NCBI GenBank assembly: GCA_020725465.1
Contig: DYEY01000040.1
Coordinates: 1-35,314 of the forward strand
Direction: 5' to 3'
Length of the DNA stretch: 35,314 nucleotides
From: Dethiobacter sp.
Lineage (GTDB): Bacteria; Bacillota; Dethiobacteria; Dethiobacterales; Dethiobacteraceae
The position numbers and the translations under genes are program-made. Shown one piece after another: positions 18,628 to 35,179 of this stretch. Positions within the stretch are counted from its first letter, which is position 1. Each line of letters begins with the position of its first letter. Below the pieces are notes generated by a model. It made no database searches. It saw nothing but the letters and a program-made list of their open reading frames with translations, and had not been told where the DNA came from.

Positions 18628-20286
18628 TCAGCAGGGCCACCGGGCATGCAGGATAAACCCGTCCCCCTCCGAATCGCAGGAAAATACCCCGCCCAGCTTT
18701 TTCACCCTTTCTTCCATGCCGGTTATACCATGGCCCTTTTTCAACCCGGTGCATCCGGTGCCGTTGTCAGCGATGAAAAGCTCCACATGTTCCGCCTTTA
18801 GCCTGATGAAGATATCCACCCGGCCGGCCCGGCCGTGTTTCAGCGCGTTGGTCAGCGACTCCTGGCAGATGCGGAATACGGTATGGGCCTGGTCCGCCGG
18901 CAGCCTGTTCACCGCTTCCCGCCCGTGTATGTTCACCGTCATTCCGGTCTGTCCGTATGCTTCGGCCAGCTGCCCAAGCCGCGCCGCCGGGGAATCCGGC
19001 GGGGCTTGTCCGCCGCTTTGACCAAAGGCGCCCCGCAGCTCGGCGGTGCCCTGCCTGGCCGCAGCCAGCGCCTGCTCCAACCTGGCCCTCCCGCCGCTCT
19101 CCAGCAGGTTCAAAACCAGCACCAGGGTTTGCCCCAGTATATCATGGACCTCCCGGGCCATCCGGTTTCGCTCCGCCAGCACCGCCAGCCGCTGCTGCAT
19201 CATGGCATATTCTTCCAGACTGGTTTTGGCCTGTTGCAGCTGCCTGTTGCTTTCTTCCAGCTCACCGATCAGCTCAAAAAAAACTGTATTGTCAGCAAAC
19301 ACCAGGGCGCTGCCCCCGGGCTTCCGCTTTAGAGCCTTTAAGGCAATACTCAGGTGTTTTTTCTTTTCCCCCGGCAAGACAATATTTACCGGGCCGCTTC
19401 CCGCTTCAGGCAGTCTGGCGCAGCCCCCGGTTGCCGACGCCAGCGCCTCATTTACAGCGTCCAGTGTTTCATAGTCCCCGCCAAGCCCCGGGATTTCAGC
19501 CATCCTCCGGTTTTTGTCAGAAACCGCGCCGTACCGGTCGGCCACCAGCACACCCTCTCTCAGGTTGTGGAACGCCTCCGATATACCAAGGGGAATCACG
19601 TCAAGAAACTGCTGCCGGTATACGGCGTAGGCAAACAGGAGCAGTGACAGATTGTAGCTCACTGGGGTAATATCAAAACGCATTTTCACCAGCCGCCCGA
19701 TATAGAGGAAATTAACAAACAGGGGGATGATGATGCCAAGCATCACCAGGCGGGACTGCAGGCCAGCCCCCCTGTACTCCCGACGCAGGCGGGAGAAGCA
19801 GTACCCAAGGCCGGCAGTGATATAACCATAGGTGACCGCGCTGTAAGCGTAAAAAAGCGGGCCGAAAGTATCCCCCAGGAAATCATAGGTGGCGTAAAAC
19901 AGGTGGTGCCTTTCGTTGGTGGCTATGACGACGAAAAAGAAAAGGGGCAAAATATTCAGCAAAACGGCCTTCCGGAAGGGAACCGGCCTACCCCTGGCGT
20001 ACAGGTAGCTGAACATCAGCACCGCGCTGCCGAGAAAAGCAACGGTAAAATACTGCGCCACGATGAAAAACCACTTGAGTCCGGCGGTAGGCGCCACCGT
20101 CTTGAAGACCTTGGACACCAGCCAGTTTAAAAGAATCAGCTGCAAAGCCAGGTAATGGTAAAATAGCAGCGTCCTCCTGGAATTAAGGCAGATGAAAACC
20201 AGAAAAAACACGGCCAGCATAATGGAAAAAATATGCCATGCCTCCAGGATAAAAATGTCATACAGCCAGTCCAGATCAAAGACCAT
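18628..20286 (-). CDS. Membrane sensor histidine kinase (7TM, HisKA_3, HATPase_c)
   Basis: Protein of 552 residues. About seven N-terminal transmembrane helices (7 to about 220) are followed by a PAS-like region (about 225-330), a coiled coil with LEESNRQLQQAKTSLEEY, a HisKA_3 dimerisation domain with phospho-acceptor His381 in EVHDILGQTL, and a HATPase_c domain: N-box ICQESLTNALKHG, DNGTG and GHGITGMEERV. This is the NarL/LuxR-linked kinase class. No response regulator gene is in the window. The ATG has GGAG nine bases upstream. It follows the degenerate kinase-like gene by 100 bases on the same strand and ends the unit. Confidence 0.92.
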   Translation of the reverse strand: MVFDLDWLYDIFILEAWHIFSIMLAVFFLVFICLNSRRTLLFYHYLALQLILLNWLVSKVFKTVAPTAGLKWFFIVAQYFTVAFLGSAVLMFSYLYARGRPVPFRKAVLLNILPLFFFVVIATNERHHLFYATYDFLGDTFGPLFYAYSAVTYGYITAGLGYCFSRLRREYRGAGLQSRLVMLGIIIPLFVNFLYIGRLVKMRFDITPVSYNLSLLLFAYAVYRQQFLDVIPLGISEAFHNLREGVLVADRYGAVSDKNRRMAEIPGLGGDYETLDAVNEALASATGGCARLPEAGSGPVNIVLPGEKKKHLSIALKALKRKPGGSALVFADNTVFFELIGELEESNRQLQQAKTSLEEYAMMQQRLAVLAERNRMAREVHDILGQTLVLVLNLLESGGRARLEQALAAARQGTAELRGAFGQSGGQAPPDSPAARLGQLAEAYGQTGMTVNIHGREAVNRLPADQAHTVFRICQESLTNALKHGRAGRVDIFIRLKAEHVELFIADNGTGCTGLKKGHGITGMEERVKKLGGVFSCDSEGDGFILHARWPC

Positions 20287-20386
20287 CGTCCGCTTCTCCT
20301 ACAGCAGATTTTTTTGGCGCGCAAACCACCGGCCGGGCCCGGCCTTCAAACACCCTGCTGGTCATCCTTTTTTATTCCCAACCGGA

Positions 20387-21508
20387 CTAAAGCAACGACT
20401 CCCTTATTTTTCCAATACCTGTCCGGGCCAGAGACACGCACAGGGTGATTTTATCCTCAAGTTCAGGCCCATCCAAACCACAGGCCTCCTCCAGGTTCCT
20501 GATGATATCCCCCAGGTACCCGCCCACCGTTTCCTGCACCCTGAGCACAATCCTGTTCCGTTCCGTTTCCTCCGCCAGCTTCCCGGACGTCTCCGCATAC
20601 TCCCGCAACCTGGCCAAAGCGGTACCTAACTCTTCGTTCTTCCGGTTCAACCTGTCAATCAGTTCCCGGTACACGGTGATATCCCTGAAGGTATAAAGCA
20701 CCCCCGCTTTCTGCCCTCCCCACTGTAGCCCGCTCCGGTGCCAGGCGTAACACCTGCCCTCCCGGACTACCTCGCCGCACTCACCGCCACCGGTTAGCTC
20801 CTCCAGCCTCTCCACGCCGTCTCCGGTGGAAAGACCGAGCCCCCTGACCAATTCGGTGCCGTTGAAATAGACAACATGCCCGTCCCCGTCCCCCATAACC
20901 ACACTTTCGTTAAGGCTGTCCAGAACATCCATACGGGCAGCCAGAACCGGCCTAAAGCCCCTGAGCAGAACCCGCCAGGCTCCCGTCCGGTACAACAAAA
21001 CGACCGCCGCCACCCCAATCACACAGTTATAACCAACGATACAGAAAAAGGCACTGCCGTAACTGACGGTTAAAGTTTCATGCACAGTAAAAACCAGGCC
21101 GTGGCCGCCGCTGGCCAGCGCCATTACCGCTCCCGCCGCCGGCACCACCGACAACATTGCCGCCACCCGCCTCCAGTTCCCCCCGAACCCTTCGGCAACA
21201 TAAAAAAACAGGGCAGGCCCAAGCAGGCAAGCGCCTGCCGTATGTATCACGGCAAAAAAGAACATCTCCCCCGGGGGCGATACCAGCACCAGGAAATGCC
21301 CCGCCAGTGTAACCAGCGCCACCGCCTGCAGCAGCAGAAGCAGCCCCTTCCGCCGCCCGGCCAATCCCGAGCACCAGGTATAGGCCGCCAGCGCCGCCAT
21401 CGCCATCACAGCCACGGTCAGCGCCGCCACCATCACCAGCTTCTCCATACTGTAAACAGCCGCAAACTCAAACAATGCCCACGCCTCCGTAACAACAGGC
21501 TTCTCCAT
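20387..21508 (-). CDS. Degenerate kinase-like membrane PAS protein (His replaced by Gln, no ATPase)
   Basis: Protein of about 373 residues from the ATG at 21508. N-terminal membrane region with about seven helices, a PAS domain (about 170-270: LDSLNESVVMGDGDGHVVYFN, GVLYTFRDITVYRELIDRL), a coiled coil and a HisKA_3-like helix. ERNRIVLRVQETVGGYL aligns without gaps to ERNRMAREVHDILGQTL of the neighbouring kinase; the phospho-acceptor His is Gln325. The protein ends 48 residues later with no HATPase domain. It therefore cannot autophosphorylate and may form mixed dimers with the kinase at 18628-20286 or act as a decoy. The ribosome site is weak. The frame is open further upstream to 21610, but that part is not membrane-like and lacks a ribosome site. 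Confidence 0.82.
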   Translation of the reverse strand: MEKPVVTEAWALFEFAAVYSMEKLVMVAALTVAVMAMAALAAYTWCSGLAGRRKGLLLLLQAVALVTLAGHFLVLVSPPGEMFFFAVIHTAGACLLGPALFFYVAEGFGGNWRRVAAMLSVVPAAGAVMALASGGHGLVFTVHETLTVSYGSAFFCIVGYNCVIGVAAVVLLYRTGAWRVLLRGFRPVLAARMDVLDSLNESVVMGDGDGHVVYFNGTELVRGLGLSTGDGVERLEELTGGGECGEVVREGRCYAWHRSGLQWGGQKAGVLYTFRDITVYRELIDRLNRKNEELGTALARLREYAETSGKLAEETERNRIVLRVQETVGGYLGDIIRNLEEACGLDGPELEDKITLCVSLARTGIGKIRESLL

Positions 21509-21640
21509 GTTATTTCCATGGCAAAAGCCAATTGTCCTTCCTGCCAGCAAAAAAGCGGGCCCTGAGGGCTGAACCGGTTGATCATCTGAAAGCAAAAAAC
21601 CCGCCGCCACAGTTTAGCCAGATTTTACCGCAGTACAGCC

Positions 21641-23915: not shown

Positions 23916-24383
23916 CTACGGCGGCACCGTGTCGATCCTGACCCGGCCGGTCACCGGCCGGACGATTACGTAAAGCCGGTTCCCCTTTTTGTCACGCAGG
24001 GCCACGTGCCCTCCAATATTGGGCGCGCCGGTGGGGCGGAAATAAAGGGTGGGCCGGTTTTCCATGGCCAGCGGGAAATTGACGTGCGAAAGCTCCACCC
24101 CCTCCGGCAGCCGCACCCAGCTTGTCCCCTCCGGGTAAATCCGCTTGTAGCGGTGGTTGAACTGGTAAAATACCAGGTAGCAGTTGACGCCATCCACAAT
24201 GGCCCGGTACCTCGTCTCCCTGATGCACGCTGCCAGCTGGTTGGCCGCCACCTTGAGCGACCAGTACGAGGAATGAAGCGCCAGCGGCACCACCACCGCC
24301 AGGAGCAGGCTCAGCACCAGCAACACCACCGCCAGTTCCACCAGGGTAACCCCGGCCTTCCCGCGCCTGCCCACCGCGCTCAC
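23916..24383 (-). CDS. Minor pseudopilin, GspH/FimT type
   Basis: Protein of 155 residues. The class III signal is GRRGKAG, cut before VTLVELAVVLLVLSL, with Glu at position five after cleavage, and a beta-rich C-terminal domain with the GspH-like pattern (LAACIRETRYRAIVDG, then strands). It is likely a minor pilin priming pilus assembly. The GTG start overlaps the PilX-like stop by four bases. It is the last gene of the pilus operon. Confidence 0.85.
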   Translation of the reverse strand: MSAVGRRGKAGVTLVELAVVLLVLSLLLAVVVPLALHSSYWSLKVAANQLAACIRETRYRAIVDGVNCYLVFYQFNHRYKRIYPEGTSWVRLPEGVELSHVNFPLAMENRPTLYFRPTGAPNIGGHVALRDKKGNRLYVIVRPVTGRVRIDTVPP

Positions 24384-25456
24384 CTTCTTGGCGTCGGGTC
24401 GATATACTCCAGGGTAAAGCCGGCCAGCCCGCTGAACGACCCGGGCGCCAGTTCCCCCCGGTACAGCTTCAGCGCCGCTTCGCTGCCGGTGACCCGCACC
24501 AGTTCAAGGTCAATATCCCCCGCCGCCGCCAGCGCGCCGCAAAGCAAAAGCGGCGCCTCCCGCTTTGCCCGGCCGTCAACGATGCTGCCGCCGCTGCAGA
24601 AAAAAGCGCTTCCCCCCGCCTGCTCCGCCGCTGTCCCAAAAACAATATCCCTCTCCGCCAGCACCACAAAATCACCGGCCAACGCCTGTGGCCGCCAGTC
24701 CACGCTTCCCCGCACCACCAGCACCCCGCTGAACAAAAATTCCCCGCTCACCGTAAGGTCGCCCGGCACATAGACCAGTGACTTCCCGGCCGCGCCCAGC
24801 TCTTCCCAGTAATACTTATCCATAATCACCGGTATATGCCACCTGGGGTCGAAAAAAAAAGCCCTGTCCGCATACCAGGTAAAATCCAAATCCAGGCTCC
24901 CGCCGCGGTTCTCAGGGCATACCCGCCCTCCGCCGGCCAGCCGGTAGCCGGCGCCCCACTCCGCCCTTACTTCTTTGGCATAAAGGGAGCCGTGCACCAC
25001 GTTCTCCCCCGCCACAAAAACAATTCTCTTTGCCCCCACGTGGCCCCGCACCTCCGCCCGGCCAAGCCGCACCTCGCCCCCCGCCAGCAGTGCCCGCCCG
25101 CCAAACAGGTCAATGCCGGCCCGCACCAAAAGCAGCCTGGTCTTTCCTTCCGCCCTGCCCACCGACCGGATCAGCTTGCCCTCACCGGCGCTTTCCACCT
25201 CCACCCGGAAAAAGGGGGGCTCCCCCGCCCGCTCCAGCACCGCCGTGTACCCGGCAAACAAATCCCCGTCCCGCGGCAGCCTGGCCACCGCCTCCTCGAC
25301 CCCCGCCTCGGCGTGGTAATACAGGCGGTCATAAAGGGCCACGTTGCGGCTGATCCGGTACTCGGTCAGCCCCAGCTCCAAAAGCCCAACCCCCAGGATG
25401 TTAAAAATGACGGCAAACAACAGCACCATGACCACCGCAGAACCGTTATTTTTCAC
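24380..25456 (-). CDS. PilX-like pilus assembly protein
   Basis: Protein of 358 residues with an N-terminal hydrophobic helix (SAVVMVLLFAVIFNILGVGL) and the PilX family Glu-rich helix after it (LTEYRISRNVALYDRLYYHAEAGVEEAVARL), then a long beta-rich region. No clear class III cleavage Gly-Phe-Thr is seen, but NGSAVVMVLL has the PilX-type start. It probably sits in the pilus tip or initiation complex. The GTG start overlaps the PilW-like stop by four bases. Confidence 0.78.
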   Translation of the reverse strand: MKNNGSAVVMVLLFAVIFNILGVGLLELGLTEYRISRNVALYDRLYYHAEAGVEEAVARLPRDGDLFAGYTAVLERAGEPPFFRVEVESAGEGKLIRSVGRAEGKTRLLLVRAGIDLFGGRALLAGGEVRLGRAEVRGHVGAKRIVFVAGENVVHGSLYAKEVRAEWGAGYRLAGGGRVCPENRGGSLDLDFTWYADRAFFFDPRWHIPVIMDKYYWEELGAAGKSLVYVPGDLTVSGEFLFSGVLVVRGSVDWRPQALAGDFVVLAERDIVFGTAAEQAGGSAFFCSGGSIVDGRAKREAPLLLCGALAAAGDIDLELVRVTGSEAALKLYRGELAPGSFSGLAGFTLEYIDPTPRR

Positions 25457-25935
25457 TCATCTCCACCCTGCCTGACATTTCTCGGCCAGACCAGGCAGCG
25501 GTATTCCACCCCGCCGCCCCGTCCCGCCGCCCGCACCGCCAAAAGCACCGGCTCCCCCGCCCCCAGCGCCCCCTCCGGCCCCAGCACAAACGACTCGATA
25601 TTATTGGCGATGGAGGCCGCCGTACCTCCGGGCAGGTAAAGCAAAAGCTGCTGGCCCGCCAGGTAAAACATATAAATTTCCTCCCGGCCGTCTTTGAGCT
25701 TGCTGTACCTTACCCGCTGGTTGGCGCAGTCCACCCAGACCGCCCGGGCGTACTGCAGCTCAGCCACCAGCTCTTCAGCGGCGATGCGGGCGTGCTGGCC
25801 CGTCTCGGCCCGGCCCGCCATACTATCAAACCCGGCCAGGCAAAAGCCGTGAAACGTCACAGCGGCACACAGCGCCAGAAGCAGCAGGGACAATGCCACC
25901 AGCAGCTCCGCCAGGGTAACGCCTCTCTCGTCCAT
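25453..25935 (-). CDS. Minor pilin, PilW/PulJ-like
   Basis: Protein of 160 residues. The very short leader MDERG is followed by VTLAELLVALSLLLLALCAA with Glu at position five of the mature form, the type IV prepilin signal. The remainder is a small beta domain. It lies three bases after the PilV-like gene and overlaps the PilX-like gene. It is likely a minor pilin; assignment to PilW is by order and size only. Confidence 0.82.
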   Translation of the reverse strand: MDERGVTLAELLVALSLLLLALCAAVTFHGFCLAGFDSMAGRAETGQHARIAAEELVAELQYARAVWVDCANQRVRYSKLKDGREEIYMFYLAGQQLLLYLPGGTAASIANNIESFVLGPEGALGAGEPVLLAVRAAGRGGGVEYRCLVWPRNVRQGGDE

Positions 25936-25938
25936 GGC

Positions 25939-26331
25939 TCACCTGGCAGCCAGGTAAGAGGACAGCTTGTACTCGCCCTCTTCCCAGCTGACCCGCACCG
26001 TAACCAGCCACAGCCTGAGGCCTTCCGCCCCCTCCGGCACCTTCACCCTCACTTCCCGGCTGAAGGCGGGATACCCCGCCACCTCCGCCTCGTCTCCGTC
26101 CGCCGCGTGCCAGTAACCGCCGCTTTTAACCTCCTCCATCTTCTCCCTGGCCAAAGCGGCCGCCGTGGTATGTCTTTCCGCCACCGCCATGCTCCGGTTT
26201 GCCACGGTGTACATGCCGAAAAAACCGGCCGAAGCCAGCCCCAGGATCATGATGGCCACCACCGATTCGAGCAAAAAAAAGCCCCGGTTGCCTTTTGGGT
26301 CCAGGACAAAAAACGGTAATTTTTTCACCAC
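25939..26331 (-). CDS. Minor pilin, PilV-like
   Basis: Protein of 130 residues with a 17-residue leader ending NRG, then FFLLESVVAIMILGLASAGF, where Glu is at position five after the cleavage site. The helix continues into ALAREKMEEVKSGGYW, usual for PilV/PulI-like minor pilins. The start is GTG at 26331 with GGGAGG upstream; part of this site can pair in a hairpin (26339-26352). It is the first minor-pilin gene after a 178-bp gap with its own promoter candidate. Confidence 0.82.
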   Translation of the reverse strand: MVKKLPFFVLDPKGNRGFFLLESVVAIMILGLASAGFFGMYTVANRSMAVAERHTTAAALAREKMEEVKSGGYWHAADGDEAEVAGYPAFSREVRVKVPEGAEGLRLWLVTVRVSWEEGEYKLSSYLAAR

Positions 26332-26509: not shown

Positions 26510-27253
26510 CTACCAGCGAATATACCAGTGCAGAATCCTCTCTCCCCACAGCCCCACCACCACCGCGGCCATGACCAGGAACGGCCCGAAAGGGACAGGG
26601 TCTTTGCGCTTCTTTATGCCGGCGGCCAGCAAAAAGATGCCGGTCAGTCCCCCGGCCACAAAAGCCACGAACAACAGCAGCAAAGTCTGCTGCCAGCCGT
26701 ACCAGAACCCCAGCGCCGCCATCAGCTTCACGTCGCCGCCGCCCATGCCGCCCCGGCTCACCACCGCCAGCAACAGCAACAGGCCTCCCCCCGCCAGCAT
26801 CCCCAGCAGCGCGTTACCCCAGGGCAGCACCGGGCGAAACACCTGCACCGCCAGGGCCAACACCAAAAGCACAATCACCAGCCGGTTGGGTATCACCTGG
26901 TGGTCCAAGTCGATAAAGAACACCACCAGGAGCACGCTGTAAAAGAAAGCCTGCGGGAAAAAGTCAAAGCCCGGGAAACGCCAAAGCAGCACCACAAACA
27001 TAAAGGCAGTAAGCAGCTCCACCAGCGCGTAGCGCCAGTGGATGGCAACGCCGCAGCCCCGGCAGCGTCCCCGCTGCCGGAGGTAGCTTACCACCGGTAT
27101 CAGCTCCCTCGCCCCCAGGCGCCGGCCGCAGCCGGGACAACGGGAAGGAGGGAAGATTACAGACTCCCCCCTGGCAATCCGGTAAATACATACATTGAGA
27201 AAGGACCCCACCGCCAAGCCCAGGACAAACGCCGTCACCGCCAGCGGGATCAA
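26510..27253 (-). CDS. pilD: Prepilin peptidase / N-methyltransferase (A24 family)
   Basis: Polytopic membrane protein of about 247 residues that cleaves the leader of prepilins and methylates the new N-terminus. Visible: VGSFLNVCIYRIARGES, the cytoplasmic zinc loop with CPGCGRR and CRGCGVAI, the first catalytic Asp in FFIDLDHQVIPN and the second in GGGDVKLMA. The TTG at 27253 overlaps the pilT stop by four bases and has GGAGAGG about eight bases upstream; the frame extends to 27331 only inside pilT. The pilins here carry the substrate motif. Confidence 0.93.
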   Translation of the reverse strand: MIPLAVTAFVLGLAVGSFLNVCIYRIARGESVIFPPSRCPGCGRRLGARELIPVVSYLRQRGRCRGCGVAIHWRYALVELLTAFMFVVLLWRFPGFDFFPQAFFYSVLLVVFFIDLDHQVIPNRLVIVLLVLALAVQVFRPVLPWGNALLGMLAGGGLLLLLAVVSRGGMGGGDVKLMAALGFWYGWQQTLLLLFVAFVAGGLTGIFLLAAGIKKRKDPVPFGPFLVMAAVVVGLWGERILHWYIRW

Positions 27254-28326
27254 GTGAGCAGCCTCTCCAGTTCTCTTTTGTCCACGCAGCGGGCCACGGC
27301 GGTGTCCCGGGTGATCAGGCCGCGCATGCAAAGCTCCGCCAGGGCGTAGTCCATGGTCTGCATGCCCACCGCTCTGCCGGTCTGCATGGCGGTGTAAAGC
27401 TGGTGCTCCTTGCCTTCGCGGATGATGTTGCTCACCGCCGGCGTGTTAATCAGCACCTCCACCGCCGCCACCCGCCCCTGCCCGTCGGCCCGGGGTAGGA
27501 TCTGCTGGGCCACCACCCCTTTTAGGGTGTCGGCCAGCTGCAGCCGGATCTGGTTGCGCATGGCGTCGCTGAACACGTCTACGATGCGGTGCACCGCCAG
27601 CGGCGCCGTCTGGGTGTGCAGGGTTGAAAACACCAAATGCCCCGTCTCCGCTGCGGTCAGGGCGATGGCCACGCTCTCCTGGTCCCGCATTTCGCCGATC
27701 AGTATCACGTCCGGGTCGTGCCGCAGCAGGTGGCGCAGCGCATCGGCAAAGGAATGGGTGTCGCTCCCCACTTCCCGCTGCCGGACGATGGACTTTTTAT
27801 GGCTGTGCAGGAACTCGATGGGGTGCTCCAAGGTGACGATATTCACCCGCCGCTCCTGGTTGATCAGGTCGATAATGGACGCCAGGGTGGTGGACTTGCC
27901 GCTGCCCGTGGGCCCGGTCACCAGCACCAACCCCCGCGGCAGCCGAGACAACTCCTTCACCACCGGCGGCAGCCCCAGGTCCTCGATCCGCGGTATGTTC
28001 CAGGGCACCATGCGGAAAGCCACGTCGATGGAACCCCGCTGCTTCATGATGCTGCCCCGGAACCGGCTTAGCCCCTGCACCGAATAAGAAAAGTCCAGCT
28101 CCCAGTTTTTCCGGAAGGAATCCTTCTGGTGGTCGTCCAGGATGGGGTAAATCATCTCCTCGATGTCACCCGGCTTCAGCGGCGGAAAGTCCAGCTGGAC
28201 CAGGTCGCCGTAAACCCGGGCCATGGGCGGCAGCCCGGCGGTCAGGTGCAGGTCGGAGGCCCTCATTTCCACGCATTTATACAGGATCTTGTCCAAATCC
28301 GGCACAAGCATAATGGGATTGGTCAT
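27250..28326 (-). CDS. pilT: Type IV pilus retraction ATPase PilT
   Basis: Hexameric ATPase of 358 residues, driving pilus retraction and twitching. N-terminal PAS-like ASDLHLTAGLPPMARV, Walker A GPTGSGKSTTLASII (about 130-144), Asp box DVILIGEMRDQES, His box AAETGHLVFSTLHT and the PilT signature near the C-terminus SNIIREGKEHQLYTAMQTG. Its start overlaps the pilB stop by four bases (ATGA), with GAGGGTGA upstream, so translation is coupled. Confidence 0.95.
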   Translation of the reverse strand: MTNPIMLVPDLDKILYKCVEMRASDLHLTAGLPPMARVYGDLVQLDFPPLKPGDIEEMIYPILDDHQKDSFRKNWELDFSYSVQGLSRFRGSIMKQRGSIDVAFRMVPWNIPRIEDLGLPPVVKELSRLPRGLVLVTGPTGSGKSTTLASIIDLINQERRVNIVTLEHPIEFLHSHKKSIVRQREVGSDTHSFADALRHLLRHDPDVILIGEMRDQESVAIALTAAETGHLVFSTLHTQTAPLAVHRIVDVFSDAMRNQIRLQLADTLKGVVAQQILPRADGQGRVAAVEVLINTPAVSNIIREGKEHQLYTAMQTGRAVGMQTMDYALAELCMRGLITRDTAVARCVDKRELERLLT

Positions 28327-30020
28327 AATATCACCCTCAGTATTTCTTCAATTGAGGTGAGGCCCTGCCTCACTTTTTTCAGGCCGTCCTGGCGCAAAGT
28401 AATCATCCCCTCCTCAATTGCTTTTTTCTTGATTTCGCTGGCTGATTTTCGCTCCAGCGTCAGCCGCTGGATACTCTCGCTCACCGGCAACAATTCGTAC
28501 ACCCCGATCCGCCCGCTGTACCCGGTGTGGCTGCAGCGCATGCAGCCTCCCTGCCTGGCCCGATATATCTTCACCTTCTTCTCTCCCGGCTCCAGCGGGA
28601 AATCTTCTATCTTGCGCGCATCCTCCGCGTCCAGGGTGTACGCCTCCCGGCACTGCACGCACAGCAGCCGCGCCAGCCGCTGCGCCAGGATGGCCAAAAT
28701 CGAGGAGGCGGTAAGGTACGGCTCTATCTCCATCTCCGTCAGCCTGGTTATGGCCCCGGCCGCGTCGTTGGTATGCAGCGTGGAAAAAACCAGGTGGCCG
28801 GTCAGGGCCGACTCGATGGCGATACGGGCTGTTTCCTTGTCCCGGATCTCACCCACCATGATGATATCCGGGTCGCTGCGTAGGATGGACCGCAGCCCCG
28901 AGGCAAAGGTCAGCCCCGCCTTGGGGTTGATCTGGATCTGGTTGATGCCCTCCATGCGGTACTCCACCGGGTCCTCCACCGTGATGACGTTTTTCTCCAC
29001 CCGGTCCACCGCCGCCAAGCTGGCGTACAGCGTGGTGCTCTTGCCGCTCCCCGTGGGCCCGGTCACCGGTATAAACCCATACGGCTTGGCCACCGCCTGC
29101 CGGTAAAGCGACAGCACCTCCGGCGAGATGCCCAGTTCCTCCAGGGTGATGGTCCGCGCCGTCCGCTCAAGCAAACGCAGCGTCATCCGCTCGCCAAAGC
29201 TGGCCGGAAGGCTGGCCACCCGCACGTCGATGACCTTCCCCTCGATCTTCAGCGTCATCCGTCCGTCCTGGGGCACCCTTCTCTCCGCAATATTCATATT
29301 GGCCATAATCTTCAGCCTTGACACCAGCGGCGCGTGGATCTGCCTGGGCGGCGACATAATGTCGTGCAGCACCCCGTCAATCCGGAACCTCACCCGCAGC
29401 GTCTTCTCGTAGACCTCGATATGCACGTCGCTGGCCTTGGAATTCACCGCCTGGGCGATAATAACGTTGGCCAGCTGCACCGCCGGCTTCTCCTCCGACA
29501 CCCGGACATCCCGGGCGGCCTCCTCCTCGCCTTCCTCCTCCTCCTCGGCGCTGTGCTCCACGCCCACGCTGCTTTTCGCGTAATTGTTAATGGCCGCCTC
29601 CAGCTCGCTGTCAGTCACCACCACCGGCTTAATATTAAACCCGGAAATAATGCGCAGGTCATCTAAAATAAGTAAATCGGTCGGCTGGCGCATGGCCACC
29701 ACCAGTTTATCGTTCTCAAAATCAATGGGAAAAGCCCCGTAGCGCCTGGCCGTTTCCGCCGAAATGGTGGCGGTGGCCACCGCGTTCACCGGGTATTCCT
29801 CCAGGGAAACAAAAGGCACCCCGGCCCGCTTGGCCAACACCCGGGCGATATCGGTCTCGCTGCAGAACTTCCGGTCCACCAGCACCTTCCCCAGTAATCC
29901 TTTATCGCCCTTTTTCATCTCCTGGCTCTTCAGCGCCGCATTCAGCTGTTCCTCGGTTATAATTCCTTCGTTGACCAACATTTTCCCCAGCAGGTCAGGC
30001 CGCGCAACCTGTCTCACCAT
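28323..30020 (-). CDS. pilB: Type IV pilus extension ATPase PilB
   Basis: GspE/PilB ATPase of about 565 residues that powers pilus assembly. The N-terminal MshEN-like domain has two repeats (LLGKMLVNEGIITEEQL and LLGKVLVDRKFCSETDI) in which the usual Arg of RLG is Leu. Then come SDVHIEVYEKTLRVRFRIDG, Walker A GPTGSGKSTTLYASL, DIIMVGEIRDKETARIA, the His box TGHLVFSTLHTND, and the four-Cys zinc motif CVQC and CMRC. The ATG at 30020 follows GGGGAG; a GTG at 30026 is possible. Confidence 0.95.
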   Translation of the reverse strand: MVRQVARPDLLGKMLVNEGIITEEQLNAALKSQEMKKGDKGLLGKVLVDRKFCSETDIARVLAKRAGVPFVSLEEYPVNAVATATISAETARRYGAFPIDFENDKLVVAMRQPTDLLILDDLRIISGFNIKPVVVTDSELEAAINNYAKSSVGVEHSAEEEEEGEEEAARDVRVSEEKPAVQLANVIIAQAVNSKASDVHIEVYEKTLRVRFRIDGVLHDIMSPPRQIHAPLVSRLKIMANMNIAERRVPQDGRMTLKIEGKVIDVRVASLPASFGERMTLRLLERTARTITLEELGISPEVLSLYRQAVAKPYGFIPVTGPTGSGKSTTLYASLAAVDRVEKNVITVEDPVEYRMEGINQIQINPKAGLTFASGLRSILRSDPDIIMVGEIRDKETARIAIESALTGHLVFSTLHTNDAAGAITRLTEMEIEPYLTASSILAILAQRLARLLCVQCREAYTLDAEDARKIEDFPLEPGEKKVKIYRARQGGCMRCSHTGYSGRIGVYELLPVSESIQRLTLERKSASEIKKKAIEEGMITLRQDGLKKVRQGLTSIEEILRVIL

Positions 30021-30038
30021 AAGCACTCCCCAACGTAC

Positions 30039-30710
30039 TTATTTTATTACCTTGAAGTTGAGCCCGACCAGCACTCCCCCCGAGTAGCGCTGCCCCAGGC
30101 TGACCCTGACCCTGGTACCGTCAAAATTATAGGTAACAGGACCTTTTTGCAGATCGGGCACCAAATCCTTCAGCACACCAAGATATCTGCCGTTTAATGT
30201 GACATCCAGCGCCCACTCCCGGCCCACCTGCTCAAGCCTCACTTCGCCGCCGGCAAAACTGACTGACCCGTCTTTGGGCAAGTTGGTTCTGAGAACCCGC
30301 TCATTATCCACGAAAACATCAATCCAGCACCGGTCCAGTGCGACCAGCTGTATATTCACCGGGCCCGTTCCCGGTTCGACCGGACCCGGCTGCGCCGCCG
30401 GAGGCTCCTCCGGCTTAACCTCCGGTGGAATAACCACATTGGGCACCGGCTGAAAAGGGTCTCTGCCTTCCTCCTTAATCTCAGCCAGCTTTTTCTGTTC
30501 GGCCGTAACCACCGCGGGAGCCAGGAAAGGATCCCGTTCCGGCTGACGCCTTTCCCTAGCCAAAAGAGGGCCCGCGGCAGGCGCCGGCTGAGCGGCGGCG
30601 GGCGCCGGCTGCTTTATCTCCGGGCTTTTCAGGGCACACCCGGACAACAGGATTACCAGCATCAGGCAGGGTATAACTGTCCTCTTTGTCCCGTTCGGCT
30701 TTTTATTCAT
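30039..30710 (-). CDS. PilP-like pilus lipoprotein with RodZ-C-like domain
   Basis: Lipoprotein of about 223 residues from the ATG at 30710 (GAGGT seven bases upstream); a start at 30728 overlapping pilO is possible. The signal ends ILLSGC, with lipidated Cys25. A Pro/Ala-rich linker contains two DPF motifs (RDPFLAP-like and RDPFQPVPNV), as in PilP. The C-terminal domain (about 115-200: VNIQLVALDRCWIDVFVDN, RTNLPKDGSVSFAGGE, LDVTLNGRYLGVL) resembles the DUF4115 domain at the RodZ C-terminus. By gene order it takes the place of PilP after pilM-N-O. It would face the cell exterior in this monoderm. Confidence 0.72.
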   Translation of the reverse strand: MNKKPNGTKRTVIPCLMLVILLSGCALKSPEIKQPAPAAAQPAPAAGPLLARERRQPERDPFLAPAVVTAEQKKLAEIKEEGRDPFQPVPNVVIPPEVKPEEPPAAQPGPVEPGTGPVNIQLVALDRCWIDVFVDNERVLRTNLPKDGSVSFAGGEVRLEQVGREWALDVTLNGRYLGVLKDLVPDLQKGPVTYNFDGTRVRVSLGQRYSGGVLVGLNFKVIK

Positions 30711-30720
30711 GGCATATACC

Positions 30721-31248
30721 TCATTCACCGGTATAGAAAGCGCTGGCCTTAATGTAAGCGGTCAGATCCGGCGCTGCCTGTTGGTTTACTTCTGCCTTGA
30801 TTTCCTCTATCCTCACAGCCCTCTCATAAAGCCTGATGTACTCAAGGAGATTCAGCATCCCGTGAAACCGGCCCTCAAAAGTCATATTAACCGGCAGCAC
30901 ATAAACCCCGTCCGTTTTGGCCCGCTCACCGAACCTGATCACAGTGAAACGCAGAGCCGACAAATCCGCCGCCGACTGCATATCCACCAGCAACCGCTCA
31001 TCGCCGGCGTCCTTCGGCAAAAGCTGCTCCAGCACGGCCAGCTGTTCCTTAAACTCCTCTTCCTTCTCCGCCAGCGCTTTCATAGCCTGCAGCCTCACCC
31101 TGGCCTGCCCGAGCTGCAGCTCCTCTGCCGCCAGTATATCAGCCGTTCTCTTCAGGACACCAAGCTGCAGGTACCCTACAGCCAAAAGCGCCCCCACCGC
31201 CAGGATTACCACAAACAATAAAGGCCTGCTTATCGCCGCTTTACCCAC
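30721..31248 (-). CDS. pilO: Type IV pilus alignment protein PilO
   Basis: Protein of 175 residues: one N-terminal membrane helix (LLFVVILAVGALLAVGYLQLG), a coiled coil (about 35-80) and a ferredoxin-like extracytoplasmic domain with LPVNMTFEGRFHGMLNLLEYI, the PilO signature region. It pairs with PilN in the inner-membrane alignment complex. The GTG is two bases after the pilN stop. Identity rests on layout, size and order as well as the motif. Confidence 0.85.
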   Translation of the reverse strand: MGKAAISRPLLFVVILAVGALLAVGYLQLGVLKRTADILAAEELQLGQARVRLQAMKALAEKEEEFKEQLAVLEQLLPKDAGDERLLVDMQSAADLSALRFTVIRFGERAKTDGVYVLPVNMTFEGRFHGMLNLLEYIRLYERAVRIEEIKAEVNQQAAPDLTAYIKASAFYTGE

Positions 31249-31250
31249 AG

Positions 31251-31841
31251 CTACTCACCCTTCTTTGCCAGCGGGTCATATTCTACTCCCGGCAACAACC
31301 CGGCCCGGACCTCGAACCGCACCAGCATTATATTGTCTTTTTTCTCCTCCGCCGAGAACATCACCCGCACATCAGCCACCCCGTTCACTTCCCGCAGGGC
31401 CGCCACCCAGCGCGCGGTGGACGGGTGGTCGTAGGTCAGCCCCCGCAGGGTCAGCTGCCCTGCTTCCCCCTCCTTGCCGGCAGTGAGCAGGAAATCGGTC
31501 AGCCACACGTTGGGCGGAATCACCGCCCCGACCTCCTCCAGCACCTCCACCCAGGGCAGCGGCCTGCCCATGACCTTCTTCAGTATACCGGCCTTACTGT
31601 TGACCTCCGCCTGCAATTTGGTATACACACTGTACCTGGCAATCTCCGCCTCCACGGCGGCCCGCTCCGCGGACACCACCGCCAGCCGGCTTTTGATCTC
31701 CATGGTCTGTATAAACAAAAAACCAAAACCCGCCGCCAGCACCAGCATAACCACACCGGACAACAGCAAAAACCGCCCCTGTGCCCGCTGCCTTTTTCTT
31801 TCCGCCAAAAGCGAAGCGGGCAGCAAATTTATCTTTACCAC
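31251..31841 (-). CDS. pilN: Type IV pilus alignment protein PilN
   Basis: Protein of 196 residues that starts VVKINLLPASLLAERKR, the conserved PilN N-terminus that binds PilM. One membrane helix (LLSGVVMLVLAAGFGFLFI), a coiled coil and an extracytoplasmic domain ending in a LVRFEVRAGL strand. I chose the GTG at 31841, two bases after the pilM stop, because GGAGG lies seven bases upstream and it restores the INLLP motif at position four; the longer open frame overlaps pilM and is Gly/Ala-rich. Confidence 0.92.
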   Translation of the reverse strand: MVKINLLPASLLAERKRQRAQGRFLLLSGVVMLVLAAGFGFLFIQTMEIKSRLAVVSAERAAVEAEIARYSVYTKLQAEVNSKAGILKKVMGRPLPWVEVLEEVGAVIPPNVWLTDFLLTAGKEGEAGQLTLRGLTYDHPSTARWVAALREVNGVADVRVMFSAEEKKDNIMLVRFEVRAGLLPGVEYDPLAKKGE

Positions 31842-31843
31842 GC

Positions 31844-32887
31844 TTAACCCTCCAATCCGCGCAGCGCAAGGCCGGTACAAACCGCAAAGTCCGGTTGCTT
31901 CACCAGCCGGTCCACCGGCCGCTTCCCGGCCGGCGCCACCCTGGCCAGGGGCCGTACCACCTGCACCGCCACCCCCAGCTCGTTCTGCAGCAATTCCGGC
32001 AGCAGCGGAATCCGCCCCCCCGGCCCGCACAGCACCAGCAAGGTCAGCTCAGGCCAGCTGTCCAGCTTGATAAAATAATTGATGGTGGACCTGATCTCTT
32101 CCACCGCCGCCAGCGCCCAGCTTCCGAAAGCCCCGCCAGACCCGTCCCCGCTCGCCGCCACCAGAGGCTCGCCCTCCTCCGCCTCCGGGGCAAACAGCGG
32201 CACCTCTTTCAGCGCCAGCCCCAGCTGCCCGGCATACTGCTTCAGCGACACCGGTATCCCCCTGGTAAACCGCGGCACCCCGTTCACCATCATCATCAGG
32301 CTGCTTAAACCGTTGGCTATATCCACCACCGCCACCGTACCCGCCCGGCTTTCCTCCCCCAGCACCCTGAGCAGCGCCAGGGGCGACGCGTCTATGACCA
32401 CCGGCTTCAGCCTGCTTGCCTGCAAAGCCGCCAAACTCTTTTCAATACCGGCCGTCCGGGCGCCCACCAGCAGCACCTCCAGCTCCGGCCCGTTCGCTCC
32501 CTTAATCTCCCCCACCACCGCAAAATCCAGCACCAGCTGCGACAGGGGAATGGGGAAATATTCCTGGGCCGACAGCCTGATAGCCTGGTCCAGCTTACTC
32601 TCCGGTACCTTGGGGAAATTAATCATCCTGGTGATGACACCCTGGTTAAAAGTCCCCAGCACCACCTCCCGGCTGCCAAACCTGGCCTCCGCCCACAGCC
32701 TCCCCAGCGCCTCGCTTACTTCACCCTCCTTCACCACCGAACCGTCGACCACCGCCTCCTCCGGTATCTCCACCATCCCGGCGGCCACCAACTTCGCCCT
32801 CCCGGCCTTTCCCTTTACTTCCACCGCCCTGATAACCCCGGTGTCAAACTCCAACCCCACCACACCGGACTGCCCGAACAAGCCCAC
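31844..32887 (-). CDS. pilM: Type IV pilus actin-like protein PilM
   Basis: Cytoplasmic actin-like ATPase of about 347 residues. It begins MGLFGQSGVVGLEFDTGVIRAVEV, the canonical PilM start. The GTG at 32887 (GGGGGTG just upstream) is preferred over the TTG at 32902. Later landmarks are FPKVPESKLDQAIRLSAQEY, VVVIDASPLALLR-like (PVVIDASPLALLRVL), VAVVDIANGLSSLMM and LLVLCGPGGRIPLL. It binds the cytoplasmic tail of PilN. Confidence 0.93.
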   Translation of the reverse strand: MGLFGQSGVVGLEFDTGVIRAVEVKGKAGRAKLVAAGMVEIPEEAVVDGSVVKEGEVSEALGRLWAEARFGSREVVLGTFNQGVITRMINFPKVPESKLDQAIRLSAQEYFPIPLSQLVLDFAVVGEIKGANGPELEVLLVGARTAGIEKSLAALQASRLKPVVIDASPLALLRVLGEESRAGTVAVVDIANGLSSLMMMVNGVPRFTRGIPVSLKQYAGQLGLALKEVPLFAPEAEEGEPLVAASGDGSGGAFGSWALAAVEEIRSTINYFIKLDSWPELTLLVLCGPGGRIPLLPELLQNELGVAVQVVRPLARVAPAGKRPVDRLVKQPDFAVCTGLALRGLEG

Positions 32888-32904
32888 GCTATCACCCCCC
32901 AAAT

Positions 32905-33600
32905 TTAACCCTCTTCCATATACCTCGCCATATTCTGCAAACCCTTATGTAATTCCCTTGATACCTTCCTTTGATTCACACCCAGCTCCTGTGCCGCCTC
33001 CACCTGGGTCATGCCCCTGAAAAACAACATATTGATAACCTTCTTTTGCATGGCCCCCAGCTTATTCATAGCCTGCTCCAGCAAAATCCTGTCCTCAATG
33101 GGCAGCCTGAAGCTCTCATACTTAAGCGTCCTGATCTCACCTTTCTCCAAAGGCACCAGGCCGGCCCGCATCACCGCCCTGACACTCTCCTCCTTGACAT
33201 TCAAGACCCTGGCAATCTCCGCTATCCCCGGCGGCTCGCCGCACTCCTTCAGCCGCTCCTCCACCAGTCTCTCCACCCGGCTTTGCAGCTCAGCCACACA
33301 GCCCGGCCGGTAATACCGGTTCTCTTTTCTTATGTAATGCCGGATCTCCCCCATGATACAATGGCTGGCATAGGTGACAAACCCGGCCCCCGCTCCCTCG
33401 TCAAATTTCTTTACGGCCTTCAGGAGCCCCTCAAACCCCGCCTGCACCATATCCTCATCCAGGCTCCCGGCCGAAAAAAGTCTCACGTAATAGCAGACCA
33501 GCCTCTTGCCGGCCCGCATTACCTCCCGCAGTTCCTCTTCCTTCCCGCTCTCCCGGTAAGCGGCCAGAGCCTCCTCCAGTCCGTTCCTCCCGCCGCCCAT
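32905..33600 (-). CDS. Sigma-70 family RNA polymerase sigma factor (SigB/F/G type)
   Basis: Protein of about 231 residues inside the pilus operon, between pilC and pilM. Region 2 is clear: DEDMVQAGFEGLLKAVKKFD, FVTYASHCIMGEIRHYIRKE. Region 3 has PPGIAEIARVLNVKEESV, and region 4 LGAMQKKVINMLFFRGMTQV with EAAQELGVNQRKVSRELHKG. Length and the GEIRHYIR segment place it with SigB/SigF/SigG, not with ECF factors. Region 4 carries the helix-turn-helix for -35 recognition. The ATG at 33600 has AGGTGA upstream; a GTG at 33609 directly abuts the pilC stop. No anti-sigma or anti-anti-sigma gene is adjacent. It may drive the pilin promoter at 35008-35037, which is inference. Confidence 0.9.
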   Translation of the reverse strand: MGGGRNGLEEALAAYRESGKEEELREVMRAGKRLVCYYVRLFSAGSLDEDMVQAGFEGLLKAVKKFDEGAGAGFVTYASHCIMGEIRHYIRKENRYYRPGCVAELQSRVERLVEERLKECGEPPGIAEIARVLNVKEESVRAVMRAGLVPLEKGEIRTLKYESFRLPIEDRILLEQAMNKLGAMQKKVINMLFFRGMTQVEAAQELGVNQRKVSRELHKGLQNMARYMEEG

Positions 33601-33609
33601 CCCAATCAC

Positions 33610-34815
33610 CTACCTTACCTGCGTAATAACCGTAAAGATAGGCAGATAAAGCGATATTACCATGGCGCCCACCATGCCTCCCACCACAATCATCATCAAA
33701 GGCTCGATAATGCTGGTAAGCCCCTTGGTCATAGTAGCCACCTCCGCCTCGTAAAACTCCGACACCCGGCTCAACATATCCGGCAGATCCCCGGTCTCCT
33801 CCCCCACCCCGATCATCAGCGTCACCATGGCCGGGAAAAGCCTACTCTGCCGCAGCGGCACCGCGATACTCTGGCCCTCCTGGATCCTAAGCCCCGCCAT
33901 CCTCACCGCCTCCGCCACCTGGCTGCTCCCCGAAGCCGGCCCCGCCGTCTCCATGGCCTGCAGCACCGGTATACCACCCCCCAGCAACGTGCTCAGCGTC
34001 CGCGCAAACCTGGCTATCACCGTCTTTTTAATCAGCTCCCCGAAAACCGGCAGCCGGAACCTGATCTTGTCCCAGCGCTCTCTTCCCGCCTGACTGCCCA
34101 GATAATACTTCGCCCCAAAGAAAGCCACACCCATCCCGGCAAAATAAAGATACCAATAAGCCCGCAGCGAATCGCTGAAATAGACAATAACCCTGGTGGG
34201 CAGCGGCAATGGCGTCCCCGGCGGGAACATCTTCACAAATACCGGCACGATAAAGAAAAACATGGCCAAAAGCACCACGAAAGCGAAAGCCAGCACCACC
34301 ATGGGATAAAACATGGCAGCCCTGACGCTGTCCTTAAGCATCTTCTCGCTGTCCAGCTGCTGTGCCAGCCGCACCAGTACCTCCTCCATGGCGCCTCCCA
34401 CCTCGCCGGCCTTCATCATGTCCACGTAAATCTTGCTGAAAATCTCCGGGTAGGCCGCCAGCGACTCGGAAAAACTCATCCCACCCTCCACGTTCCGCGC
34501 CACTTCCGCCACCGCCTTCCCCAAAGTCGGGTTGGCCGCCTGCTCGCTCAAAGCATGCAGACACCTGGTCAGCGGAATACCCGACTTCAGCATGGAAGCC
34601 AGCTGCCGGCTGAACAGGCTCAGCTCCCCGATCCCCACTTTCCGTTTAAACGTTAAAGCCCCCTTAAGCGCAGACTGCTTCATTTCCTTCAATTCTAAAG
34701 TGGTATACCCGATTCTCTTCAGCCTGGCCGCCGCCGCCAGCTCATTCTCCGCTTCCATCTTACCATTTGATACCACACCCGACTTGTCCAACACCTGGTA
34801 AGCATACAGGGGCAT
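33610..34815 (-). CDS. pilC: Type IV pilus inner-membrane platform protein PilC
   Basis: Protein of 401 residues, standard length. N-terminal MPLYAYQVLDKSGVVSNGKM, two GspF domains (about 68-190 and 270-392), each with the pattern FSRQLASMLKSGIPLTRCLH and FARTLSTLLGGGIPVLQAME, and three membrane helices ending MVGAMVISLYLPIFTV. It is the platform through which PilB and PilT move pilin subunits. It is first in the operon. The ATG is preceded by GGGGGAGG. Confidence 0.96.
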   Translation of the reverse strand: MPLYAYQVLDKSGVVSNGKMEAENELAAAARLKRIGYTTLELKEMKQSALKGALTFKRKVGIGELSLFSRQLASMLKSGIPLTRCLHALSEQAANPTLGKAVAEVARNVEGGMSFSESLAAYPEIFSKIYVDMMKAGEVGGAMEEVLVRLAQQLDSEKMLKDSVRAAMFYPMVVLAFAFVVLLAMFFFIVPVFVKMFPPGTPLPLPTRVIVYFSDSLRAYWYLYFAGMGVAFFGAKYYLGSQAGRERWDKIRFRLPVFGELIKKTVIARFARTLSTLLGGGIPVLQAMETAGPASGSSQVAEAVRMAGLRIQEGQSIAVPLRQSRLFPAMVTLMIGVGEETGDLPDMLSRVSEFYEAEVATMTKGLTSIIEPLMMIVVGGMVGAMVISLYLPIFTVITQVR

Positions 34816-35007: not shown

Positions 35008-35037
35008 TTGTCTAAAAAAAATTCTCCCCGGTATAAC
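35008..35037 (+). promoter_or_regulatory. Promoter of the pilin gene (SigA-like and SigB/F-like readings)
   Basis: SigA reading: TTGTCT (35008-35013), 18 bases, TATAAC (35032-35037). SigB/F reading: GTCTAA (35010-35015, one mismatch to GTTTAA), 13 bases, CGGTAT (35029-35034, one mismatch to GGGTAT). The transcript would have a leader of about 140 bases. The SigB/F reading is notable because the adjacent operon encodes a sigma factor of that class. Confidence 0.5.
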
Positions 35038-35068
35038 CTCAGTTACAAACAGGTAAAAACATTTCGAC

Positions 35069-35179
35069 GGAGGTGACAGCCCCGCCTCCCCAAAAAACTT
35101 CAACAGGGGGGTCAAGAAAAAAAACAAACAACCGATATATGTTGTAGGCCTAATGTCCTAAAAATATCTAATTAGGAGG
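35069..35179 (+). promoter_or_regulatory. Pilin mRNA leader with competing hairpins and a paired ribosome site
   Basis: GGAGG (35069-35073) can pair with CCTCC (35085-35089), while CCTCCCC (35085-35091) can instead pair with GGGGGG (35106-35111). Further on, CCTAAT (35149-35154) or TCCTAA (35156-35161) can pair with ATTAGGA (35171-35177), covering part of the ribosome site AGGAGG (35174-35179). No c-di-GMP riboswitch core was recognised. Confidence 0.45.

Follow-up and report, generated by a model that had tools for sequence, protein, structure and literature searches.

Organization of the type IV pilus operon

The window analyzed here is an entire contig of 35,314 bases (G000:C29) from a 2.9 Mb draft genome. 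It contains a run of type IV pilus (T4P) genes on the minus strand, together with a pilin gene of the GFTLVE type that is divergent from pilC (Table 1). Within this T4P cluster, between pilC and pilM and on the same strand, lies a gene of the sigma-70 family whose product is given the working name SigP. A complete sigma factor gene had been described at this position in an earlier, sequence-only reading of the DNA, and the Pfam matches and the identity of the neighboring genes bear this out. The open reading frame extends at most over 32905-33609 (GTG start, 234 amino acids), but the ATG at 33600 is the likelier start codon; it follows the pilC stop by 9 nt, has GGTAGGTG immediately 5' of it, and agrees with the coordinates of the earlier reading (32905-33600).

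Table 1. Genes and predicted elements of the T4P cluster, with the basis of each assignment.
Feature	Position	Strand	Basis
Pilin promoter predicted for SigP, TGTCTAAA (-35) ... GGTATAAC (-10)	35009..35037	plus	Exact match, aligned with 32 others
Pilin gene, N-terminus MQKAIRRAKDNQKGFTLVELMVVVIIIGILVAIAIPVYG, truncated by contig end	35186..35314	plus	Sequence; orthologous divergent pilins in relatives
pilC	33610..34815	minus	PF00482 (T2SSF)
T4P-linked group-3 sigma factor (SigP)	32905..33600	minus	Pfam r2/r4, AlphaFold model, clade membership
pilM	31844..32902	minus	PF11104 (PilM_2), TIGR01175
pilN, approximate start	31251..31848	minus	PF05137
pilO	30721..31248	minus	PF04350
PilP-like lipoprotein	30039..30728	minus	Position, lipoprotein signal, kept in relatives; no Pfam match
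pilB with MshEN c-di-GMP-binding domain	28323..30026	minus	PF00437, PF05157, NF053729
pilT	27250..28326	minus	TIGR01420 above cut-off
pilD prepilin peptidase	26510..27331	minus	PF06750, PF01478
Two small pilin-like genes	25939-26331, 25453-25935	minus	Position kept in relatives; no Pfam match
PilX-like minor pilin, final gene of the run	24380..25456	minus	PF14341

SigP possesses regions 2, 3 and 4 of the sigma-70 family and no region 1.1, as is typical of group-3 sigma factors. The Pfam matches to Sigma70_r2 (43 bits) and Sigma70_r4 (47 bits) are both above cut-off, and that to region 3 is weak. Sigma factors of solved structure, SigB of S. aureus among them, match the AlphaFold model of the protein (pLDDT 80). 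The genes of the T4P operon in the window include no anti-sigma or anti-anti-sigma gene, in agreement with the earlier observation that none is adjacent to the sigma gene. Farther along the contig, at 18628-21610, two genes with N-termini of the 7TM histidine kinase type, one of them with kinase domains, are found downstream of efp and pepQ.

Distribution and gene order

Relatives of SigP with 40-74% identity were found in 21 of 60 related genomes, a count that includes two genomes with partial matches (G022 and G030). In a wider sample of the host phylum, a profile search recovered the family in 26 of 398 genomes, which scored about 200 bits or more, against 152 bits at most for all other sigma factors in the sample; overall, T4P-linked sigma factors reached at least 194 bits and others no more than 161. 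Every member examined in this phylum is surrounded by a T4P cluster. The order pilC-sigma-pilM is the commonest, being found in about 26 genomes when the two samples are taken together, and six genomes have the order pilC-sigma-minor pilins; the remaining members adjoin pilT, pilB or minor pilins. Conservation of the pilC-sigma-pilM order among homologues had been proposed as a check in the earlier reading. The order recurs in about 25 other genomes, so the position of SigP is not a matter of chance, and the factor is a part of the pilus operon. One family member (L179; G259:C1:2075088-2075783) contains an in-frame TGA and may be a pseudogene.

The family also occurs in 24 of 296 sampled genomes of the Actinomycetota. 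Among 20 neighborhoods inspected there, most members adjoin pilB-pilT-pilC or pilins. Five of the 20 matching loci (L297, L303, L306, L308 and L309) have no T4P genes nearby, so the linkage to T4P is not universal in this phylum.

Relationship to known sigma factors

The sequence-only reading had labeled the protein a SigB/F/G-type sigma factor. This is only loosely right, since the corresponding model (TIGR02980) is the best curated match to SigP but its score of 118.9 bits is far under the cut-off of 234.35; the subfamily is thus the nearest one and not one to which SigP properly belongs. Scores against the other curated models are also low, with 97.7 for the sporulation SigF equivalog (cut-off 321), 84.5 for SigG (cut-off 457), 60.9 for FliA/WhiG (TIGR02479, cut-off 189.6) and 106.3 for cyanobacterial SigF (NF005644, cut-off 261). 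Elsewhere, the host genome encodes SigA, SigE, SigG, SigK, FliA and a SigF-like factor, and its own SigG and FliA score 502 and 237 on their respective models. In a tree of 97 sigma factors without cyanobacterial sequences, all 45 T4P-linked sigma factors fall on one side of a single branch (support 95/85, recovered in 94% of bootstrap trees).

The earlier reading had named, as a finding that would overturn it, a phylogeny showing an ordinary sporulation SigF, SigG or SigE moved here in one strain only. The possibility that SigP is a sporulation or stress sigma factor (SigF, SigG or SigB) transplanted into the operon in a single lineage can be dismissed: SigB/F/G is its best curated model, but SigP scores far under the cut-offs, the host has a separate SigG, SigE, SigK and SigF-like gene, and the tree places SigP in a clade of its own that is spread over many families. 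By its sequence and phylogeny, SigP is a member of a separate, previously unnamed sigma family of the T4P gene clusters of two phyla. No description of a sigma family of T4P operons was found in the accessible literature, in which neither the reviews of Gram-positive T4P nor the genome papers mention a SigP-like factor.

A conserved promoter upstream of the pilin gene

Across the host family, the region between pilC and pilA contains an element that hardly varies, on the same strand as the pilin gene. Alignment of 33 pilin promoter loci gives the consensus TGTCTAA-N14/15-GGTATAA, in which the spacer is 14 nt in most loci and 15 nt in about eight. The spacing of the -35 and -10 elements and the -10 element beginning with GG resemble those of SigB-type promoters. 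In the window, the element is located about 150 nt upstream of the pilin ATG. The long leader that separates the two contains a GC-rich hairpin (35066-35086) that matched no Rfam family.

The site in the window is the sole copy of TGTCTAAA-N13-GGTATAAC without mismatches in the host genome, and when one mismatch is allowed in the 16-base motif only three sites are found, upstream of pilA, a sortase gene and a gene for a HYR-domain protein; by our own estimate, about 0.07 such sites would be expected by chance. The second of these sites (C66; L273, 9717-9745 and 9027-9656) lies shortly before the sortase gene, beside two minor-pilin clusters, and the third (C2; L272, 1458-1486) is followed by a c-di-GMP-II riboswitch and then by the secreted HYR-domain protein. 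A match to a relaxed promoter pattern on contig C15 of the host genome falls inside an open reading frame and was dismissed as chance. Versions of the element with one mismatch precede pilins in G100, G162, G174 and G352, and one with two mismatches does so in G010.

Sites of this type were not found upstream of pilC in the relatives. Autoregulation of the operon is therefore not supported, and for the same reason the operon is probably read by another sigma factor.

Co-occurrence of the promoter and the sigma factor

Among the 60 relatives, the strict site is present in 18 of the 21 genomes with the sigma factor but in only 4 of the 39 without it (Fisher p=8e-9, kinship ignored), and a reversed control pattern gave one match in the whole set. 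The phylum sample shows the same association, with the site in 16 of 26 sigma-positive and 12 of 372 sigma-negative genomes (p=9e-15, kinship again ignored). The four sigma-negative relatives with a site are G024, G058, G011 and G053. G024, whose pilus genes are degraded, is the only sigma-negative genome of the phylum sample in which the site is clearly at a pilin; the sites of G058 and G011 are in front of genes for riboswitch-secreted proteins, and that of G053 appears to be a chance match. In draft genomes the sigma gene may have been missed. Among the sigma-positive genomes of the phylum sample, G143 has its site away from any pilin. At L191 and L206, a SigP-type promoter and a c-di-GMP-I riboswitch precede secreted proteins in two genomes in which SigP was not detected.

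Further evidence is provided by genomes in which the sigma factor and the pilin gene, or the sigma factor and the cluster, are separated. In G365 and G386, the site precedes a GFTLVE-type pilin that is on a different contig from the sigma gene. Conversely, three members of the host family (G008, G006 and G015) retain an orthologous cluster in which pilC abuts pilM without a sigma gene, and the strict site occurs nowhere in their genomes. These genomes serve as natural knock-outs. For G008 and G006 the sequence upstream of the pilin was available, and the element is absent from both; in G006 its place is taken by what we read as a SigA-like TTGTAT-N17-TATAAT. In the Actinomycetota, five loci (L041, L042, L290, L291 and L292) carry TGTCTA-N14-GGTA/GGCA between the sigma gene and a downstream pilin, and a c-di-GMP-I riboswitch follows the promoter.

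The co-occurrence of promoter and sigma factor is partly a matter of shared descent, and the site and the sigma gene could have been inherited jointly with the cluster. This, together with the four genomes that have the site without a detected sigma factor, would fit an ordinary pilin promoter that is read by another sigma factor, the sigma factor of the operon serving other, unseen genes. Such an arrangement is nevertheless quite improbable, given that the site is unlike the SigA type, that genomes keeping the cluster without the sigma gene also lack the site, and that the two stay together across two phyla. The main proposal of the earlier reading, activation of pilin by the factor, is well supported by the genome comparison, in which the pilin gene is the predicted target and the conserved promoter tracks the presence of the sigma factor.

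Proposed control of the pilin gene

Based on these comparisons, SigP is most probably a group-3 sigma factor dedicated to the pilus. It would be expressed together with the T4P machine and guide RNA polymerase to the major pilin gene by way of the TGTCTAA-N14/15-GGTATAA promoter, a reading to which we assign a probability of about 0.88. The pilC-sigma-pilMNOP-pilBTD operon, which lacks a SigP-type site, would be transcribed by a different factor, presumably SigA, and the gene order and spacing suggest that the sigma factor is made together with the pilus machine. SigP would then recognize the pilin promoter and no more than a handful of further surface genes, a step for which the comparative support is strong. 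Production of the abundant filament subunit would thus coincide with that of the machine.

A further level of control may come from c-di-GMP riboswitches, which Rfam predicts in many relatives and which may gate the operon, the sigma gene or the leader of the pilin gene. In family f3, the SigP-type promoter is followed by a c-di-GMP-I riboswitch and then by the pilin gene, and two f3 loci have one riboswitch at the pilin leader and another directly upstream of the sigma gene (L161, 563-648 and 1601-1689; L162, 1414-1500 and 2540-2625). At L168, L177, L180 and L183, a c-di-GMP-I riboswitch is upstream of pilC-sigma operons or of neighboring T4P genes. The Rfam search found no riboswitch in the window, and its operon lacks this gate.

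Family f3 also possesses a fusion protein, present in three genera, in which sigma regions 2-3 without region 4 are joined to a PilO domain. The fusion genes (L160, 1979-3103; L161, 1776-2858; L166, 16547-17593) adjoin pilB or pilT, and at L160 and L161 they lie between pilB and a full sigma gene. The PilO call rests on Pfam, where PF04350 scores 25.6, 21.7 and 21.5 bits against a cut-off of 22; an earlier iterated profile was possibly trained on the fusions themselves. The fusion is possibly a regulator or sensor. It physically joins a sigma-like part to a part of the machine, which is a hint, and only that, of a checkpoint of the FliA/FlgM type, in which an anti-sigma factor or pilus component would hold the sigma factor until the machine is assembled. 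Such a checkpoint, which the earlier reading had compared with FliA in flagella, seems unlikely, as the operon has no anti-sigma gene, the fusion is limited to one family, and c-di-GMP riboswitches explain regulation in other relatives. In a more elaborate and similarly doubtful version, SigP would be the output of an assembly-sensing circuit in which a pilus component (in f3, a PilO-like domain joined to a sigma core without region 4) holds or releases the sigma factor, pilin transcription awaiting a machine that is ready; c-di-GMP riboswitches would form a second gate at both the pilin gene and the sigma gene.

Comparison with known systems and implications

To our knowledge, little is understood of how Gram-positive T4P are switched on. 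The sigma factor FliA (sigma-28) serves the late, abundant subunit of the flagellar filament, and SigP as predicted is similar in being devoted to the filament subunit of a surface machine. It differs in that its operon has no FlgM-like partner and the host has a FliA of its own. SigP also differs from SigB, SigF and SigG, since it belongs to a separate clade and no anti-sigma factor of the RsbW/SpoIIAB type is adjacent to it.

The closest functional precedent is cyanobacterial SigF, which, like the predicted SigP, is a group-3 sigma factor with the major pilin gene as its main target. Transcription of pilA is lost in sigF mutants of Synechocystis (Slr1564) and Nostoc punctiforme, and in vitro only SigF transcribes from the pilA promoter of Synechocystis (PMC2758279, PMC6495340). 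In contrast to SigP, which is encoded within a T4P operon, sigF of N. punctiforme is outside one and possibly shares a transcript with two conserved genes of hypothetical function (PMC6495340). In Clostridium difficile, T4P are under the control of a c-di-GMP riboswitch, according to the title of a study cited elsewhere (Bordeleau et al., 2015, in PMC6916266). As far as that title goes, the SigP systems with riboswitches are alike in being Gram-positive T4P under such control; they differ in that several SigP lineages have a sigma-specific promoter before the riboswitch, and in that f3 has a riboswitch at the sigma gene as well.

In conclusion, sigma factors dedicated to an appendage are already known as a kind, and the SigP family is a new and widespread example. 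SigP would be to the pilus what FliA is to the flagellum and would parallel cyanobacterial SigF independently, and the SigP system ties control by a sigma factor to c-di-GMP riboswitches. The predicted promoter may serve as a genome-wide marker of genes co-expressed with the pilus, and it already points to a sortase and to a surface protein under c-di-GMP control. With a sigma factor encoded in the operon and an exact predicted promoter, the control of T4P becomes directly testable in two phyla.
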